Below are positions 15,223-22,907 of a DNA stretch of 35,348 nt, piece after piece. The notes under the pieces were generated by a model. It saw nothing but the letters and a program-made list of their open reading frames with translations. It was not told the DNA's origin and ran no database searches. Source of the DNA: Myxococcaceae bacterium (GTDB taxonomy: Bacteria > Myxococcota > Myxococcia > Myxococcales > Myxococcaceae); NCBI GenBank assembly GCA_019694595.1, contig JAIBBQ010000049.1, positions 1 to 35,348 on the forward strand, written 5' to 3'. The position numbers and the translations under genes are program-made. The stretch's first letter is position 1, and each line of letters starts with the position of its first letter.

Positions 15223-15858
15223 TCAGCTGCAGTGCGCGGGAATGCTCCCGCAGTCGTTCACCTTGGAGACGGTGTCGAGGATGCCGAGGCCCGAGGTGAA
15301 GAGGATGTCCATGCCGCAGGACGCGATGGACGACGCGCAGTTGGGGACGTCGGCGTAGTTGGTCCACCGCCAGGTGTTGCGACTCGACCGGTAGCGGCAC
15401 TGCAGCGTGTAGTAGCTGCGCGCCGGCGTGTCGTGACGGATGGGGAAGCAGCCCTCGTAGATGAAGTTGTCGTCGCTCACCATCCAGTAGTCGCCGCCGT
15501 GCGGGTAGTTCAGGTTCTCGTTGAAGGTGGTCTCGCCGGATCGCGGGGGCATGTACGCCGCGTGGCCCGAGTAGACGACCGAGTTGTAGTCGTGCTCGGT
15601 GAAGTACTCGTAGACCACCCGGCAGATGGAGCCGTGCGGGTTCGGCTCGGTGTAGTAACAGGAGATGCTGCTCCAGTAGCTGAAGAGCAGGTCTTCACGC
15701 AGCCGGACCTTCTTCACCCGCTGCTCGTTGCTGATGATCGCGTGCTCGCTGCTGCCGCGATCGGTGCCGCCGCTGCCGTCCACCTCGCCCACCTCGGCGA
15801 CCCCGCAGCCGAACGTCACCACCGACACCGCCAGTGCTGCCAGTTGCTTCGCGTGCAT
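15223..15858 (-). CDS. Small secreted lipoprotein of unknown function
   Basis: A 211-residue protein with a lipoprotein signal (lipobox T-F-G-C18). Low-complexity Gly/Ser/Asp sequence follows, then a compact domain rich in aromatic residues and cysteines (SYWSSISCYYTEPN, VYEYFTEHDYNSVVYSG, GGDYWMVSDDNFIYEGC). The even Cys content suggests disulfides and folding outside the cytoplasm. I do not recognise a family. Its ribosome binding site is the best in the window, so it is probably well expressed. It is a single-gene unit, ended by the hairpin at 15158-15196 and divergent from the helical repeat gene at 16033. Confidence 0.75.
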   Translation of the reverse strand: MHAKQLAALAVSVVTFGCGVAEVGEVDGSGGTDRGSSEHAIISNEQRVKKVRLREDLLFSYWSSISCYYTEPNPHGSICRVVYEYFTEHDYNSVVYSGHAAYMPPRSGETTFNENLNYPHGGDYWMVSDDNFIYEGCFPIRHDTPARSYYTLQCRYRSSRNTWRWTNYADVPNCASSIASCGMDILFTSGLGILDTVSKVNDCGSIPAHCS

Positions 15859-17289: not shown

Positions 17290-17787
17290 ATGGCCACCAA
17301 GATCGCCGATGGGTACCGCAGCTCGCCGGACCAGGTCTTTCGCTACGCCTCCGACAAGCAGAACCACTTCTCTGCCTTCGACTTCGACCTCGACGGCAAG
17401 CTGAGCATCGGCGAGCTGGCCAAGGGCTTCGAGGTGCTGGGCAACTCGCCCGCGGCGTCCAAGTTCAAGGCGACCTTCGCCCGCATGTTCTTCGGCAGCG
17501 ACCTGTCGAAGGTCACCTCCAAGGGCGACGGCTTCTACGACCGCTCGGGCAACGTCGACACCGCCAAGGTCCACGAGGTCTTCCAGCGCTTCACCAAGAA
17601 CGGCGTGCTCACCAAGGACGACGTCAACGAGGTGGTGGCGGGCTTCGGCATCAAGGACCGCCTCACCAAGAAGGGCCAGTACGGCTCGGCCTTCAAGCTC
17701 CAGAGCGGCTACACCGAGGACCAGTTCGTCGAGCTGCTCAAGGGGCACCTGCTGCGCGACAAGTTCCTCGAGCGCATGGGGCAGTGA
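17290..17787 (+). CDS. Caleosin-like EF-hand protein (putative peroxygenase)
   Basis: A 165-residue soluble protein. Residues 31-42 are a textbook EF-hand loop (D31-F-D33-L-D35-G36...E42). His26 lies five residues before the first Asp, and E42 is followed by LAKGFEVLG. Plant caleosins have the same layout: heme-binding His, FFD loop, then G-F-x-x-(I/L)-G. Further on, GFYDRSGNVDTAKVHEVFQRF resembles the caleosin G-x-Y-D-x-x-G-x-F segment. Caleosins are Ca- and heme-binding peroxygenases that use fatty-acid hydroperoxides. Differences: the oil-body hydrophobic hairpin with proline knot is absent, and the second conserved His (HGSDSG in plants) seems replaced by Thr/Ser. The next gene encodes an oxygenase of the family that makes such hydroperoxides. 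The alternative is a plain EF-hand protein. Confidence 0.62.
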   Translation: MATKIADGYRSSPDQVFRYASDKQNHFSAFDFDLDGKLSIGELAKGFEVLGNSPAASKFKATFARMFFGSDLSKVTSKGDGFYDRSGNVDTAKVHEVFQRFTKNGVLTKDDVNEVVAGFGIKDRLTKKGQYGSAFKLQSGYTEDQFVELLKGHLLRDKFLERMGQ

Positions 17788-17860
17788 GGCCGACCGGACG
17801 CGCGCGAACGTTGTGGCGGTGGCCCCGAGGCGCATAGCCTCGCGGGGAAGCAATCTTTCA

Positions 17861-17867
17861 GGGGGAG
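17861..17867 (+). promoter_or_regulatory. Shine-Dalgarno fixing the start of the heme oxygenase gene
   Basis: GGGGGAG ends 6 nt before ATG 17874, supporting this start and hence the long N-terminal extension of the heme oxygenase. Confidence 0.65.
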
Positions 17868-17873
17868 CACACC

Positions 17874-20336
17874 ATGCCGTCGCGCATCGAAGGCGGAGCC
17901 GACGTCCGGCAGCTGAAGACGTTCGAAGAGGTCGCCACGCCGCACCCGAAGACGGGCGGCATCGGCTCGTGCCCGTACCACAACGCGCTCACCGCCGGAG
18001 ACGCCGGCCAGCTGCGCGAGGTCGCGGCGGAGATGATCCGCGCGCAGACCTTCGGCGACGCGACGCTGCCCAAGGTCGAGAAGGTGCTCACCGACGCGCT
18101 GCGGGCCGACCCGGCCGACGCCGAAGGCAAGACCAACCACGCGCTCGGGGTGACGTACTTCCTCGGGCAGAAGTGGGGCGACGCCATCAAGCACCTCGAG
18201 GTCGCCGCCCAGCGCGACCCCAAGAACGCCGACATCCAGAAGGTGCTCGGCCAGGCGCGCACCAACGCGGCCACCGGCATCGAGAAGCCCTCGTACGTCA
18301 CCCACGTGCCCGACGCCTTCGAGCTGCAGCGCTCGCCCGCGGCGGGGCTGCGCGCGCCCGAAGACTGGAAGGACCTGCCCGAGAAGAAGCAGAACGCGGT
18401 CATCGCCACGCTGCGCAACTTCGCCGGCGCCGTCGGTCACCGCGTCGCCGAGGCCGCGATCTCCGCCGCCGACCGCTTCCGCGACAAGGACGCCACCTTC
18501 GCCTTCGAGAGCTGGGACCGCCGCGGCGACCTGCGCGGCAAGCTCGAGCTGGCGGCGATGCGCCACCACCTCAACGAGGACCCGCTCCAGGCGAGCAACG
18601 ACACCGTGCTCGCGGCGCAGCACGACGCGCCCAAGCCCGCGTGGACCGACAAGGTCCGCACCGCCACCGGCGCCTTCACCACCGACGAGCCGATGGAAGG
18701 TGCCGCCGGCTTCGAGTTCCAGCGCACCGGCGCCCCGGTGAAGGCCCGCGTCAACCGCGCCGAGGACCCGTCGCTGCCGTCCGCCCGCGAGGTGAGCCGC
18801 GCCATCCTCAGCGCCGACGGGCCGCGCAAGGGCGTGCCCTTCCTCAACAACCTCGCCATCGCGTGGATCCAGTTCGAGACCCACGACTGGGTGAGCCACG
18901 GCGACGTGTCGAAGACCGGCGCCTACGAGATCCCGCTCGCGCCCGACGACCCGCTCCGGCAGCGCTACGGGCTGTCGACCATGACCATCGCCAAGACGGG
19001 TGAGAACCCGGCGGGCGAGGCGGGGAAGATCTCCTACCGCAACGAGGTCACCCACTGGTGGGACGGCTCCAACATCTACGGGAGCGACCAGGCCACGCAG
19101 GACCGGCTGCGCCTCGGCGCCGACGGCAAGCAGCTCCCCGGCGGGAAGCTGCGCTTCGACGGTGGTGAGCTGCCGCTGTCGGCGGAGACCGGGGTGGAAG
19201 ACACCGGCTTCAGCCGCAACTGGTGGGTCGGCCTCGACGTGTTCCACACGCTGTTCGTCAAGAACCACAACCTCATCGCCGACAAGCTCGCCAAGGCGCA
19301 CCCCGACTGGTCGAGCGACCAGCTCTTCAACATCTCCCGCATGGTGAACGCGGCGATGATGGCCAAGATCCACACGGTGGAATGGACGCCCGCGGTGCTC
19401 CCCAACAAGAAGCTGGTGGGCGGCATGGGCGCCAACTGGTGGGGGCTCCTGGAGACGATGAAGAAGACCTTCGGCGAGCGGAAGGTCGACAACGGCTGGG
19501 AGCCGCGCGACCCGGTGCTCGGCGGCATCGTCGGCGGCAAGCGCGACAACCACGGCAAGCCGTACGGCCTCTCGGAAGAGTTCGTCGAGGTCTACCGGCT
19601 CCACGCCGGAATGATGGACCACCTCGACGTGCTGCCCATCGGCGCCACCGCGCCCACCCAGGCCATCTCCGCCGAGGCCACCCGCGGCACCGGCGCGCGC
19701 ACGGTGATGGAGCAGGTGGGCATGCCCACGCTCCTCAACTCCTTCGGCAACCAGCACATGATGGCGCTGGTGAACAACAACTACCCGTCGTTCATGCAGG
19801 ACATGGCGGTCGACGGGCAGTCGGTGATGGACCTGGGCGCCATCGACATCATCCGCGCCCGCGAGCGCGGGGTGCCGCCGTACAACGAGTTCCGCCGGCA
19901 GCTGGGCTTGAACCCCATCAGCTCGTTCGCGGACCTCGGCGCCGACGCCAAGACCATCGCCAAGCTGGAGTCGCTCTACGGCAAGGGCAAGGAAGGCGTG
20001 GAGAAGATGGACCTCCTCGCCGGCACCCTGTCGGAGGCCAAGCGGCCCGAGAACTACGGCTTCGGGGAGACCCTGTTCCAGGTCTTCATCCAGATGGCGT
20101 CGCGCCGGCTCGAGGCCGATCCGTTCTACACGGACAAGTTCAACGCCAAGTACTACTCGCAGGAAGGCATGGACATGATCGAGCACGCCACGCTCAAGAG
20201 CCTGCTCCTCGAGAACTTCCCCGAGCTCGAGAAGTCGGGCCTCAAGAACGTGAACAACGCCTTCGAGCCCTGGGGCACCGACGCCAAGTCGCACCCCGAA
20301 GAGCACCCGCTGACCGCGGGCTCGGAGAAGTACTGA
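17874..20336 (+). CDS. Alpha-dioxygenase/PIOX-like heme oxygenase of the animal-peroxidase superfamily
   Basis: The 820-residue protein has a C-terminal catalytic domain (about 300-780) that matches bacterial relatives of plant pathogen-inducible oxygenases. Marker segments are NEVTHWWDGSNIYGSD, VKNHN, and NAAMMAKIHTVEWTPAVL. Distal-side residues Q333-x-x-x-H337 (IQFETHDW) correspond to the Gln/His pair of cyclooxygenase. Y574-x-x-H577 (VEVYRLH) corresponds to its radical Tyr and proximal heme His. Retention of this Tyr argues for fatty-acid oxygenation rather than plain peroxidase activity. The first about 290 residues are an unusual extension without signal peptide: a Cys/His segment (GSCPYHN) and a TPR-like part (about 62-130; HALGVTYFLGQKWGDAIKHL). 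It lies 86 nt after the caleosin-like gene and 21 nt before the HD-GYP/LuxR gene. Expected product: 2-hydroperoxy fatty acids (inference). Confidence 0.82.
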   Translation: MPSRIEGGADVRQLKTFEEVATPHPKTGGIGSCPYHNALTAGDAGQLREVAAEMIRAQTFGDATLPKVEKVLTDALRADPADAEGKTNHALGVTYFLGQKWGDAIKHLEVAAQRDPKNADIQKVLGQARTNAATGIEKPSYVTHVPDAFELQRSPAAGLRAPEDWKDLPEKKQNAVIATLRNFAGAVGHRVAEAAISAADRFRDKDATFAFESWDRRGDLRGKLELAAMRHHLNEDPLQASNDTVLAAQHDAPKPAWTDKVRTATGAFTTDEPMEGAAGFEFQRTGAPVKARVNRAEDPSLPSAREVSRAILSADGPRKGVPFLNNLAIAWIQFETHDWVSHGDVSKTGAYEIPLAPDDPLRQRYGLSTMTIAKTGENPAGEAGKISYRNEVTHWWDGSNIYGSDQATQDRLRLGADGKQLPGGKLRFDGGELPLSAETGVEDTGFSRNWWVGLDVFHTLFVKNHNLIADKLAKAHPDWSSDQLFNISRMVNAAMMAKIHTVEWTPAVLPNKKLVGGMGANWWGLLETMKKTFGERKVDNGWEPRDPVLGGIVGGKRDNHGKPYGLSEEFVEVYRLHAGMMDHLDVLPIGATAPTQAISAEATRGTGARTVMEQVGMPTLLNSFGNQHMMALVNNNYPSFMQDMAVDGQSVMDLGAIDIIRARERGVPPYNEFRRQLGLNPISSFADLGADAKTIAKLESLYGKGKEGVEKMDLLAGTLSEAKRPENYGFGETLFQVFIQMASRRLEADPFYTDKFNAKYYSQEGMDMIEHATLKSLLLENFPELEKSGLKNVNNAFEPWGTDAKSHPEEHPLTAGSEKY

Positions 20337-20357
20337 CGTGGGAGGCGTCGGGCGCTG

Positions 20358-21911
20358 ATGCAGGCGCCGGACGACCAGGCTCCGCCGCCGCGCCTCGCCG
20401 AGCTGGTGGGCGCGCTGTCGCTGGCCACCGATCTCGCCGACGGGTTCGCGGCCGAGAAGTGTCTGCGCACCGCCATCGTCGCGGTGCGCCTCGCCCAGCT
20501 GGTGAAGGCCGGGCCGGAGGTGGTCCGGCTCTGCTTCTGGGCCGGAGTGCTGCGCTTCGTCGGTTGCACCGCCTTCGCCCACGAGGAAGGCCGCACCTTC
20601 GCGGCGGGCGACGACATCGGGCTGCGACAGGCGCTCGCCTTCGCCGAGCCGTCGAACTTCACCAGCTTCGCGCGCCACGCGCTGCCCCGGGTGGCCCGCA
20701 CCGCGCCGCTGCCGCAGCGCCTCGAGGCGGTCGGGCGGCTCCTCGGGTCTCCGTCGGCGCCGGCCGCCCACAGCCGGGCCCAGTGCGACGCCGGCAAGAG
20801 CTTCGCGCGCGCCGTGGGGCTCGCCGGCGTCGAAGGGGTGCTCGCGGTGCGCGACGAGCGCTTCGACGGCCGGGGCCCGCTGCGGCGCGCGAAGGGCGAG
20901 CAGCTCCCGCTCGCCGCGCGGGTGATCGACGTCGCCGACGTGGCCGAGCTCTACGCGTGGACGCTGGGTGAAGACGCGATGCGCGGCGAGCTCGCCCGGC
21001 GCAGCGGCGCCCAGCTCGACCCTGGCCTGGTGGAGCCGTTCCTCGCGCACGCCGCTTCGCTGCTCGAAGGGCTGCGCGCGCCGTCGTGCTGGGAGACCTA
21101 CCTCGCCGCGGAGCCTTCGCCCTGGCAGCCGGTGGAGCAGGGCGCCGCGGTGCTGCAGGCCTTCGGCCGCATCGCCGACGTCGGCTCGGTCTTCACCCTG
21201 GGCCACTCGCAGCGGGTGGGCGCGCTCGCGCGGCAGGCGGGCGCGCTGCTCAAGCTCCCCGCGCCCCAGCTCGAGCGGCTCGAGCTCGCCGGGGCGGTGC
21301 ACGACCTGGGGCGGCTCGCGGTGCCGGTGGGCCTGTGGGAGAAGCCGGGCGCGCTCACGCCCTTCGAGCGGGAGCGGATGCAGACCCACAGCCAGCAGAC
21401 CGAGACGATCCTGCGCGTCGCGCCGGCGCTGCACCCCATCGCCGAGCTCGCCGGGGCGACGCACGAGCGCGGCGGGGGCAAGGGCTACCACCGGCGGCTC
21501 CCGTGGGAGGCGATTCCCCGGGTGGCGCGCGTGCTGCCGGTGGCCGACGCCGCGGTGGCGATGGACTCGGAGCGGCCGCACCGGCCGCGGCTCGAGAGCG
21601 AGGCGCTGCAGCTCGAGCTCCTGCTGGAAGTGAAGCTCGGCAAGCTCGACCGCGAGGTGGTGGACGCGGTGCTGGAGATCGTCGGCAAGCCCCGCCCGCG
21701 CAAGGAGCGCACCTCGCCCCTGTCGCCGCGCGAGCTCGAGGTGGCGCGGCTGGTGGCGGTGGGCCGCACCAACAAGGAAGTCGGCGCCCTGCTGGCGATG
21801 TCGCCGCGCACCGCGCAGAAGCACCTGCTCGGCATCTACGACAAGCTGGGCGTCGAGAGCCGCGCCGGGCTCGCGCTCACGCTGATGGAGCAGGGGCTCC
21901 TGGAAGACTGA
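20358..21911 (+). CDS. HD-GYP-type phosphohydrolase fused to a LuxR DNA-binding domain
   Basis: A 517-residue protein. The N-terminal region (CLRTAIVAVRLAQL, LRFVGCTAFAHEEG) is the degenerate first HD-like part known from LuxR-fused HD proteins, mostly of actinobacteria. The central HD domain has GHSQRV (H283), H315-D316 with LGRLAVP, H344 and T-H369-E. GYH (376-378) stands where canonical HD-GYP has GYP, a change I recall as usual in this subfamily. The C-terminus is a LuxR/GerE helix-turn-helix (about 450-517; LSPRELEVARLVAVGRTNKEV). It may degrade or bind a cyclic dinucleotide and regulate transcription directly. It starts 21 nt after the heme oxygenase stop (GGGAGG upstream, with a long 12-nt spacer), so it is probably cotranscribed with it. 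Confidence 0.85.
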   Translation: MQAPDDQAPPPRLAELVGALSLATDLADGFAAEKCLRTAIVAVRLAQLVKAGPEVVRLCFWAGVLRFVGCTAFAHEEGRTFAAGDDIGLRQALAFAEPSNFTSFARHALPRVARTAPLPQRLEAVGRLLGSPSAPAAHSRAQCDAGKSFARAVGLAGVEGVLAVRDERFDGRGPLRRAKGEQLPLAARVIDVADVAELYAWTLGEDAMRGELARRSGAQLDPGLVEPFLAHAASLLEGLRAPSCWETYLAAEPSPWQPVEQGAAVLQAFGRIADVGSVFTLGHSQRVGALARQAGALLKLPAPQLERLELAGAVHDLGRLAVPVGLWEKPGALTPFERERMQTHSQQTETILRVAPALHPIAELAGATHERGGGKGYHRRLPWEAIPRVARVLPVADAAVAMDSERPHRPRLESEALQLELLLEVKLGKLDREVVDAVLEIVGKPRPRKERTSPLSPRELEVARLVAVGRTNKEVGALLAMSPRTAQKHLLGIYDKLGVESRAGLALTLMEQGLLED

Positions 21912-21977
21912 ACGCCCGTTCCTGCGCCAGGTGGCGACTGTGGGGCGCGCCTCGCGATCCGTACCTTGAGCACACCT

Positions 21978-21995
21978 CGCGGCGCTCACGCCGCG
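21978..21995 (+). terminator. Hairpin between HD-GYP/LuxR and NmrA-like genes
   Basis: CGCGGCG (21978-21984) pairs perfectly with CGCCGCG (21989-21995) around a CTCA loop. It lies 67 nt after the HD-GYP stop and 27 nt before ATG 22023. It may terminate the upstream unit or fold in the leader of the NmrA-like gene. Confidence 0.4.
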
Positions 21996-22022
21996 CGGAC
22001 ACTCGAGCGAGGACGCACGGAC

Positions 22023-22907
22023 ATGATCGTCATCTGTGGAGCGACGGGGTCGATGGGGCCGCACCTGGTGAAGTCGCTGCAGGACAAGGGCGTGCCGTTC
22101 CGCGCCGCGGTGCGCAGCCCCGAGGCTGCCCGGCAGAAGCTGGGGGCGCAGGTGCCGCTGGTGCCGTTCGACCTCGAGCGGCCCGCGACCTTCGCCGAGG
22201 CGCTGCGCGGGGCGAGCCAGGTGTTCTGCGCGGTGGGCGGCGCGACGGGCACGCCCGAGCTGGTGGCCTGCGAGCAGCGGCTCATCGACGCGGCGAAGGC
22301 GGCGGGGGTGGGCCACTACGTGAAGCTCTCCGGCATCGACGCCCAGGTGGACAGCCCGTCGAAGATCCAGCGCATGCACGCGGAGATCGAGCGGCACCTG
22401 CGCGCCTCGGGCCTGTCGGCCACCGTGCTCAAGCCGTCGTTCTTCTTCCAGAACTTCCTCGGGCTGCAGCCGGCCATCGCCGAGGGCGTGCTGCCGGTGC
22501 CCACCGGCCAGGCGAAGGCCGGGCTCATCGACGCGCGGGACATCGCCGACGTGGCCGCCGCGGCGCTCACCACCCCGGCGCTTCGCGGCGCCACGTACAC
22601 CCTGACCGGCCCCCGGTCGCTCAGCCACGGCGAGGTCGCGGCGATCCTGTCCGCGGTGCTCGAGCGGCCGGTGCAGCACGTGGACCTCCCGGCCCAGGCC
22701 TTCGAGCAGTCGCTGGTGCAGGCGGGGCTCCCGGGGTGGTTCGCCAACCTGCTCGCCGACGTCTACGCCACGGTGTTCGCGCCCGGGCTCATCGACCGGG
22801 TCACCGGCGACGTGCGCCGCGTCACCGGGCACGAGCCGCGGAGCCTGGAGGCCTTCGTGCGCGAGCACCGCGCGGCCTTCCTCGGTGCGGCGTCCGCCGC
22901 GGCCTGA
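22023..22907 (+). CDS. NmrA-like NAD(P)-binding protein (atypical SDR)
   Basis: The chosen start is ATG 22023, which places the Rossmann strand at the N-terminus (MIVICGATGSMG, G6-x-x-G9-x-x-G12); a TTG at 21966 would add 19 residues containing the hairpin arms. The 294-residue length is typical. Later motifs are HYVKLSGIDA, where the catalytic Tyr of classical SDRs is absent, LKPSFFFQNFL, and the DARDIADVAAAAL segment. The NmrA/azoreductase-like branch of atypical SDRs includes redox sensors and reductases acting on quinones or ethers. It is downstream of the oxygenase and HD-GYP genes and could process an aldehyde or sense NADPH, but that is only context. It is convergent with the alpha/beta hydrolase. 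Confidence 0.85.
   Translation: MIVICGATGSMGPHLVKSLQDKGVPFRAAVRSPEAARQKLGAQVPLVPFDLERPATFAEALRGASQVFCAVGGATGTPELVACEQRLIDAAKAAGVGHYVKLSGIDAQVDSPSKIQRMHAEIERHLRASGLSATVLKPSFFFQNFLGLQPAIAEGVLPVPTGQAKAGLIDARDIADVAAAALTTPALRGATYTLTGPRSLSHGEVAAILSAVLERPVQHVDLPAQAFEQSLVQAGLPGWFANLLADVYATVFAPGLIDRVTGDVRRVTGHEPRSLEAFVREHRAAFLGAASAAA

Follow-up and report, generated by a model that had tools for sequence, protein, structure and literature searches.

We have found, in a bacterium of the Myxococcaceae, a gene for a fatty-acid alpha-dioxygenase (alpha-DOX), P0002, that lies next to the gene of a small EF-hand protein, P0001. From its similarity scores and alignments we take P0001 as a remote and degenerate homolog of the caleosins, without two features that define the family. 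The genes are located in one contig (C122) of a 7.28-Mb genome in 394 contigs, and this whole stretch of 35,348 nucleotides is referred to below as the window. The alpha-DOX/caleosin pairing is not a conserved system: it was seen once, and one of the partners is degenerate. The explanation that we favour, and that we regard as an evenly balanced proposition, is that an ordinary alpha-DOX stands beside a lineage-specific degenerate caleosin that would not act as a peroxygenase and might be a Ca2+-binding accessory, with both genes probably transcribed together and the pairing not conserved.

The two neighbouring genes on the same strand that the first-pass annotation had described are both in place as open reading frames (Table 1), separated by 86 bp. 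The GC content at codon positions 1, 2 and 3 was 0.57, 0.37 and 0.98 in the P0001 gene and 0.65, 0.44 and 0.97 in the P0002 gene, a pattern indicating that both are truly coding. No terminator-like site was found on the plus strand between positions 15800 and 22000 and this, together with the short gap, makes the co-transcription of the two genes probable. The HD-GYP/LuxR regulator gene that follows is a possible operon partner of the alpha-DOX, and the NmrA-like gene possibly the last one of the same-strand run. A conserved operon including the HD-GYP/LuxR gene was rejected, its homologs in four relatives having no alpha-DOX, caleosin-like or NmrA genes nearby. An antisense open reading frame (17709-22868, 1719 aa) was interpreted as the shadow frame commonly seen opposite GC-rich genes.

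Table 1. Genes of the window around the alpha-DOX, and alpha-DOX loci of other genomes with recurring neighbours.
Feature	Location	Strand	Evidence and remarks
Caleosin-like EF-hand protein P0001, 165 aa	17290-17787	+	Pfam, profile tests, alignments, hydropathy, coding pattern
Putative fatty-acid alpha-dioxygenase P0002, 820 aa, N-terminal TPR stretch	17874-20336	+	Pfam, PDB matches, residue conservation, tree, model and Foldseek
HD-GYP / LuxR-type HTH regulator, 517 aa	20358-21911	+	Pfam; starts 21 bp after the alpha-DOX gene
NmrA-like NAD(P)-binding protein, 313 aa	21966-22907	+	Pfam
alpha-DOX with lipoxygenase-family gene (PF00305)	L046:7566-11504; L057:1718-5587; L047:7563-11024; G136:C449:74-2326		
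Flavin reductase gene (PF00724) with alpha-DOX	L129:135-3217; L070; L108; L092; L127; L130; L011		

In the case of P0002 all the features that could be tested (family, nearest structures, residues and fold) agree, and on their combined weight we consider it beyond reasonable doubt a true fatty-acid alpha-DOX, as had been assigned before. The score against the Pfam model PF03098 was 306 bits. The best sequence matches in the PDB were the rice and Arabidopsis alpha-DOX (4kvj, 4kvl and 4hhr), with E values from 5e-87 to 9e-85, and the next-best match after the alpha-DOX structures had an E value of 1e-33. In the rice enzyme the residues involved with the heme, the radical and the substrate are Y379, H157, H382, H311, T316 and R559 (PMC8720084). 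P0002 Y574 aligns with Y379, the residue that was changed to Phe in 4kvl, and besides this catalytic Tyr the protein keeps the distal (H337) and proximal (H577) heme His and the substrate residues H500, T505 and R745. Seven positions (H500, T505, F570, Y574, H577, F738 and R745) were invariant across the 84 alpha-DOX proteins of the alignment, and H337 was shared by 83 of them. A structure model obtained with AlphaFold2 from a 22-sequence alignment, of moderate confidence (pLDDT 68.8), had as its top Foldseek matches four alpha-DOX structures, with target TM-scores of 0.75-0.81.

The presence of alpha-DOX in bacteria has already been published (PMC8720084). P0002 is like the bacterial CalDOX, LepDOX and CsDOX described there and like the plant alpha-DOX (PDB 4hhs, 4kvj) in family and fold, and has in common with them the catalytic Tyr, both heme His, the carboxylate-binding His and Arg, and the Thr. 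Unlike them, it carries an N-terminal TPR stretch, located by weak Pfam matches within the first ~130 residues, and sits on a long branch. In the tree its long branch is sister to eight bacterial alpha-DOX, which come from Myxococcota, Nitrospirota, Actinomycetota, Verrucomicrobiota and Planctomycetota, and the group of nine has a support of 100/99. The eight are all 770-800 aa long, and most align with P0002 into the N-terminal extension. P0002 is the most divergent member of this small multi-phylum TPR-alpha-DOX clade: 24 of 137 near-invariant alpha-DOX positions were changed in it, compared with 1-10 in the other members tested. This gives a hint that its substrate or product may therefore differ from those of other alpha-DOX. 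The clade (L046, L051-L057) is scattered over at least five phyla, suggesting horizontal spread.

The survey of the adjacency in relatives revealed no conserved neighbourhood, the outcome that the first-pass annotation had itself named in advance as telling against the pair. We compared 83 other alpha-DOX loci, 80 from a scan of public genomes and three from the phylum of the window, and found no caleosin-like open reading frame anywhere in the flanking sequence fetched for them, which for 73 of the loci amounted to 1 kb or more on each side. A caleosin was detectable in none of 48 alpha-DOX genomes, in a search where no control genome matched either, though the same model does match in the phylum of the window. 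Among 195 genomes of this phylum we found no ortholog of P0001, the best matches being weak and including canonical caleosins. Five of these genomes had caleosins and about six had alpha-DOX-like PF03098 proteins, and only the genome of the window had both. For the canonical caleosin genes of the phylum survey, the fetched flanks contained no alpha-DOX. Another 395 genomes around a TPR-alpha-DOX bacterium gave no caleosin, in a search in which no control matched.

These numbers are what would be expected if P0001 and P0002 were chance neighbours, i.e., if the alpha-DOX worked alone and the P0001 gene were an unrelated upstream orphan: the adjacency is missing from the 83 loci, P0001 has no ortholog in the phylum, the canonical caleosin genes there have no alpha-DOX in their fetched flanks and a single genome holds both families. 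We consider this possible, though rather doubtful. Against it stand the common strand and the distance of only 86 bp, as well as the relationship of P0001 to a family that works with alpha-DOX in plants. Besides, since caleosins occur in so few genomes of the phylum, a chance adjacency of one to an alpha-DOX would be a striking coincidence.

P0001 scored 28.1 bits against the Pfam Caleosin model (PF05042), barely over the gathering cut-off of 27 bits, and the best stretch was confined to the EF-hand region (residues 24-69). For comparison, calmodulin reached 19.6 bits and real bacterial caleosins 57.7-126.4 bits. When the whole genome was searched with PF05042, P0001 was not reported at E ≤ 0.001. 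We have also used a profile built from six bacterial caleosins, against which P0001 scored 29.0 bits, calmodulin 15.8, a bacterial EF-hand protein 9.5 and 1000 shuffles at most 8.4, the real caleosins left out in turn giving 105-254 bits. The alignment to this profile spanned residues 21-114 and included the YDxxG motif, and the comparison of P0001 with caleosins by hhalign gave 95.7% over residues 24-115. Support was thin beyond the EF-hand, with residues 55-165 alone scoring 13.4 bits versus 11.3 for the best of 3000 shuffles. It is because the scores are above chance and above those of plain EF-hand proteins that we consider P0001 a remote relative of caleosins.

Alternatively, P0001 might be a plain Ca2+-binding EF-hand protein of another family, the EF-hand alone scoring on the caleosin model. 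The restricted Pfam stretch, the score of calmodulin itself on PF05042 and the small distance from the shuffles after residue 54 would fit this. On the other side, P0001 was 13-20 bits above calmodulin and the bacterial EF-hand protein on the bacterial profile, its alignment continues through YDxxG and hhalign covers nearly the same residues. After the profile and control tests the plain EF-hand reading appears less likely, and we consider it an outside candidate.

The EF-hand loop of P0001 (DFDLDGKLSIGE, residues 31-42) is acidic at loop positions 1, 3, 5 and 12, and H26, located before it, aligns with the first heme-type His of all six bacterial caleosins. The second heme-type His is not in P0001, which has V/T at about residues 75-76 where the six canonical bacterial proteins have K/Q/E-H-x-x-D. 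In plant caleosins the motif with the second heme-coordinating His is NIHKCKHGSDSGVYD, and the lipid-binding hydrophobic segment of the family often contains a proline-rich motif. This segment, present in the other bacterial caleosins, is shortened and not hydrophobic in P0001: 57 residues separate the first His and the YD motif, versus 70-74 in the canonical bacterial proteins (i.e., 13-17 shorter), and the maximum 19-residue hydropathy is 0.50 versus 0.96-1.62 in caleosins. Another His, H95, is found 69 residues after H26, and several plant caleosins have a His-His spacing of 68-70 (PMC5216026). When P0001 is aligned with the caleosins, H95 falls 12 residues beyond the YD motif and is therefore not homologous to the second caleosin His. 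The absence of both the second His and the lipid segment rules out P0001 as a canonical caleosin, although a one-His heme protein is conceivable. A single-sequence structure model (mean pLDDT 43.6) was too poor to judge the fold, and no relatives of P0001 that could deepen it were found in viral contigs or plasmids. The caleosin signature that had been claimed for the protein holds up as remote homology with an EF-hand and H26, and does not extend to the second His or the lipid segment. Likewise, the proposed profile check did give a match over the cut-off, albeit a marginal one centred on the EF-hand.

Caleosins have been published before from a myxobacterium, the Sorangium cellulosum copies (PMC5957377), and a further caleosin, canonical and with both His, is encoded on a different contig of the genome of the window (C127:2381-2887, locus L012:2348-2908; 112.7 bits), not near an alpha-DOX. 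P0001 has in common with these caleosin/peroxygenases the EF-hand, the first His and YDxxG, but has neither the second heme His nor the hydrophobic lipid segment, and its score is very low. If any caleosin of this genome reduces hydroperoxides, the one in C127 would be a better candidate than P0001. Elsewhere, at L049:10858-12572 and L050:3459-6032, canonical caleosins adjoin a fatty-acid desaturase and an AMP-binding acyl-CoA synthetase-like gene. At L015:5787-6638 (minus strand) a caleosin runs in frame into what appears to be the start of an alpha/beta hydrolase (VVLLHGFPEFWWSW), after which the frame ends; this is possibly a fusion or a broken frame, and a Pfam search gave no hydrolase match for the hydrolase part.

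If the pair is an ordinary alpha-DOX beside a degenerate caleosin, as we favour, the heme of P0002, with H337 distal and H577 proximal, would be oxidised by peroxide and a radical would be formed on Y574. H500 and R745 would hold the carboxylate of the fatty acid while T505 positions the alpha-carbon, and the addition of O2 at C2 would give an (R)-2-hydroperoxy acid, which in turn would give a one-carbon-shorter aldehyde by decay, or a 2-hydroxy acid. This scheme is taken from the chemistry of the alpha-DOX family, and what P0002 itself displays of it is the residues. P0001 would be a lineage-specific homolog with one good EF-hand left, its second heme ligand and its lipid anchor having been lost. 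Most likely it is not a peroxygenase but a predicted Ca2+ binder, and it could be a soluble accessory, perhaps tuning or placing the dioxygenase.

We consider it improbable that the two proteins form a two-step module, in which the alpha-DOX makes a 2-hydroperoxy fatty acid and P0001 reduces it or transfers its oxygen. There is a precedent in Arabidopsis, where alpha-DOX1 and AtCLO3 are reported to carry out a coupled reaction on leaf oil bodies (PMC6914826), and the same two families are found in the bacterium as neighbouring genes; P0001 keeps the first heme His and the EF-hand, and H95 is a candidate replacement heme ligand. However, AtCLO3 is an oil-body peroxygenase, whereas P0001 has neither a second heme His nor the lipid segment, and the bacterial pairing is not conserved. 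The two invariant heme-coordinating His have been described as required for the peroxygenase activity of caleosins, and sequences without the canonical motifs were set aside in published work (PMC6309107; PMC5957377). Since one heme His is lost and none of the other genomes examined shows the pairing, the sequence does not support a working two-step oxylipin pathway, and the self-contained pathway that had been proposed for the locus fails at its peroxygenase step. We also find it hard to believe that the bacterium built a plant-like couple independently, in which a minimal, soluble caleosin with one His (or with H26/H95) would take the 2-hydroperoxide from a TPR-tagged alpha-DOX.

We have found other genes that recur beside bacterial alpha-DOX. 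A lipoxygenase-family gene (PF00305) adjoins the alpha-DOX in four loci (Table 1), only 3-25 bp away in three of them. The four loci belong to three genomes of the phylum of the window and one Actinomycetota MAG; in G136 the lipoxygenase adjoins a PF03098 fragment at the contig end. In the phylum survey, the three genomes whose lipoxygenase shares 50% identity or more with that of G130 (G130 included) all have an alpha-DOX sequence adjoining it. No lipoxygenase was detected in the genome of the window itself, in a search in which no control matched. Judged from gene neighbourhoods, the alpha-DOX/lipoxygenase pair is a better candidate for a bacterial oxylipin module than the pair with the caleosin. 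In seven loci, one of them a short fragment, an alpha-DOX has within 1.3 kb a flavin reductase of the old-yellow-enzyme family (PF00724); the hosts are cyanobacteria, an acidobacterium and, for the fragment, a genome from the family of the window. In 35 loci a LuxR-type AAA (MalT-like) regulator is near the alpha-DOX, mostly just upstream, and these loci are gammaproteobacterial as far as we have looked at them (e.g., L087:5175-7814). With about 900 aa, the alpha-DOX of Gammaproteobacteria are longer than the others.

A bacterial heme dioxygenase with a separate protein that converts the hydroperoxide is likewise found in Nostoc punctiforme, which has a 10S-DOX and a catalase-related hydroperoxide lyase (summarised in PMC13049297). 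The dioxygenase there belongs to a different subfamily, and the second enzyme is demonstrated and of a different kind.

Should P0001 and P0002 work together, the alpha-DOX/caleosin step of plant oil bodies would have a bacterial counterpart, and this would, if true, be a minimal system for asking how caleosins handle hydroperoxides. Our data correct this attractive earlier reading: bacterial alpha-DOX are widespread, and what recurs next to them is not a caleosin but a lipoxygenase-family gene or a flavin reductase. The alpha-DOX/lipoxygenase and alpha-DOX/flavin reductase pairs are better places to seek bacterial oxylipin pathways.
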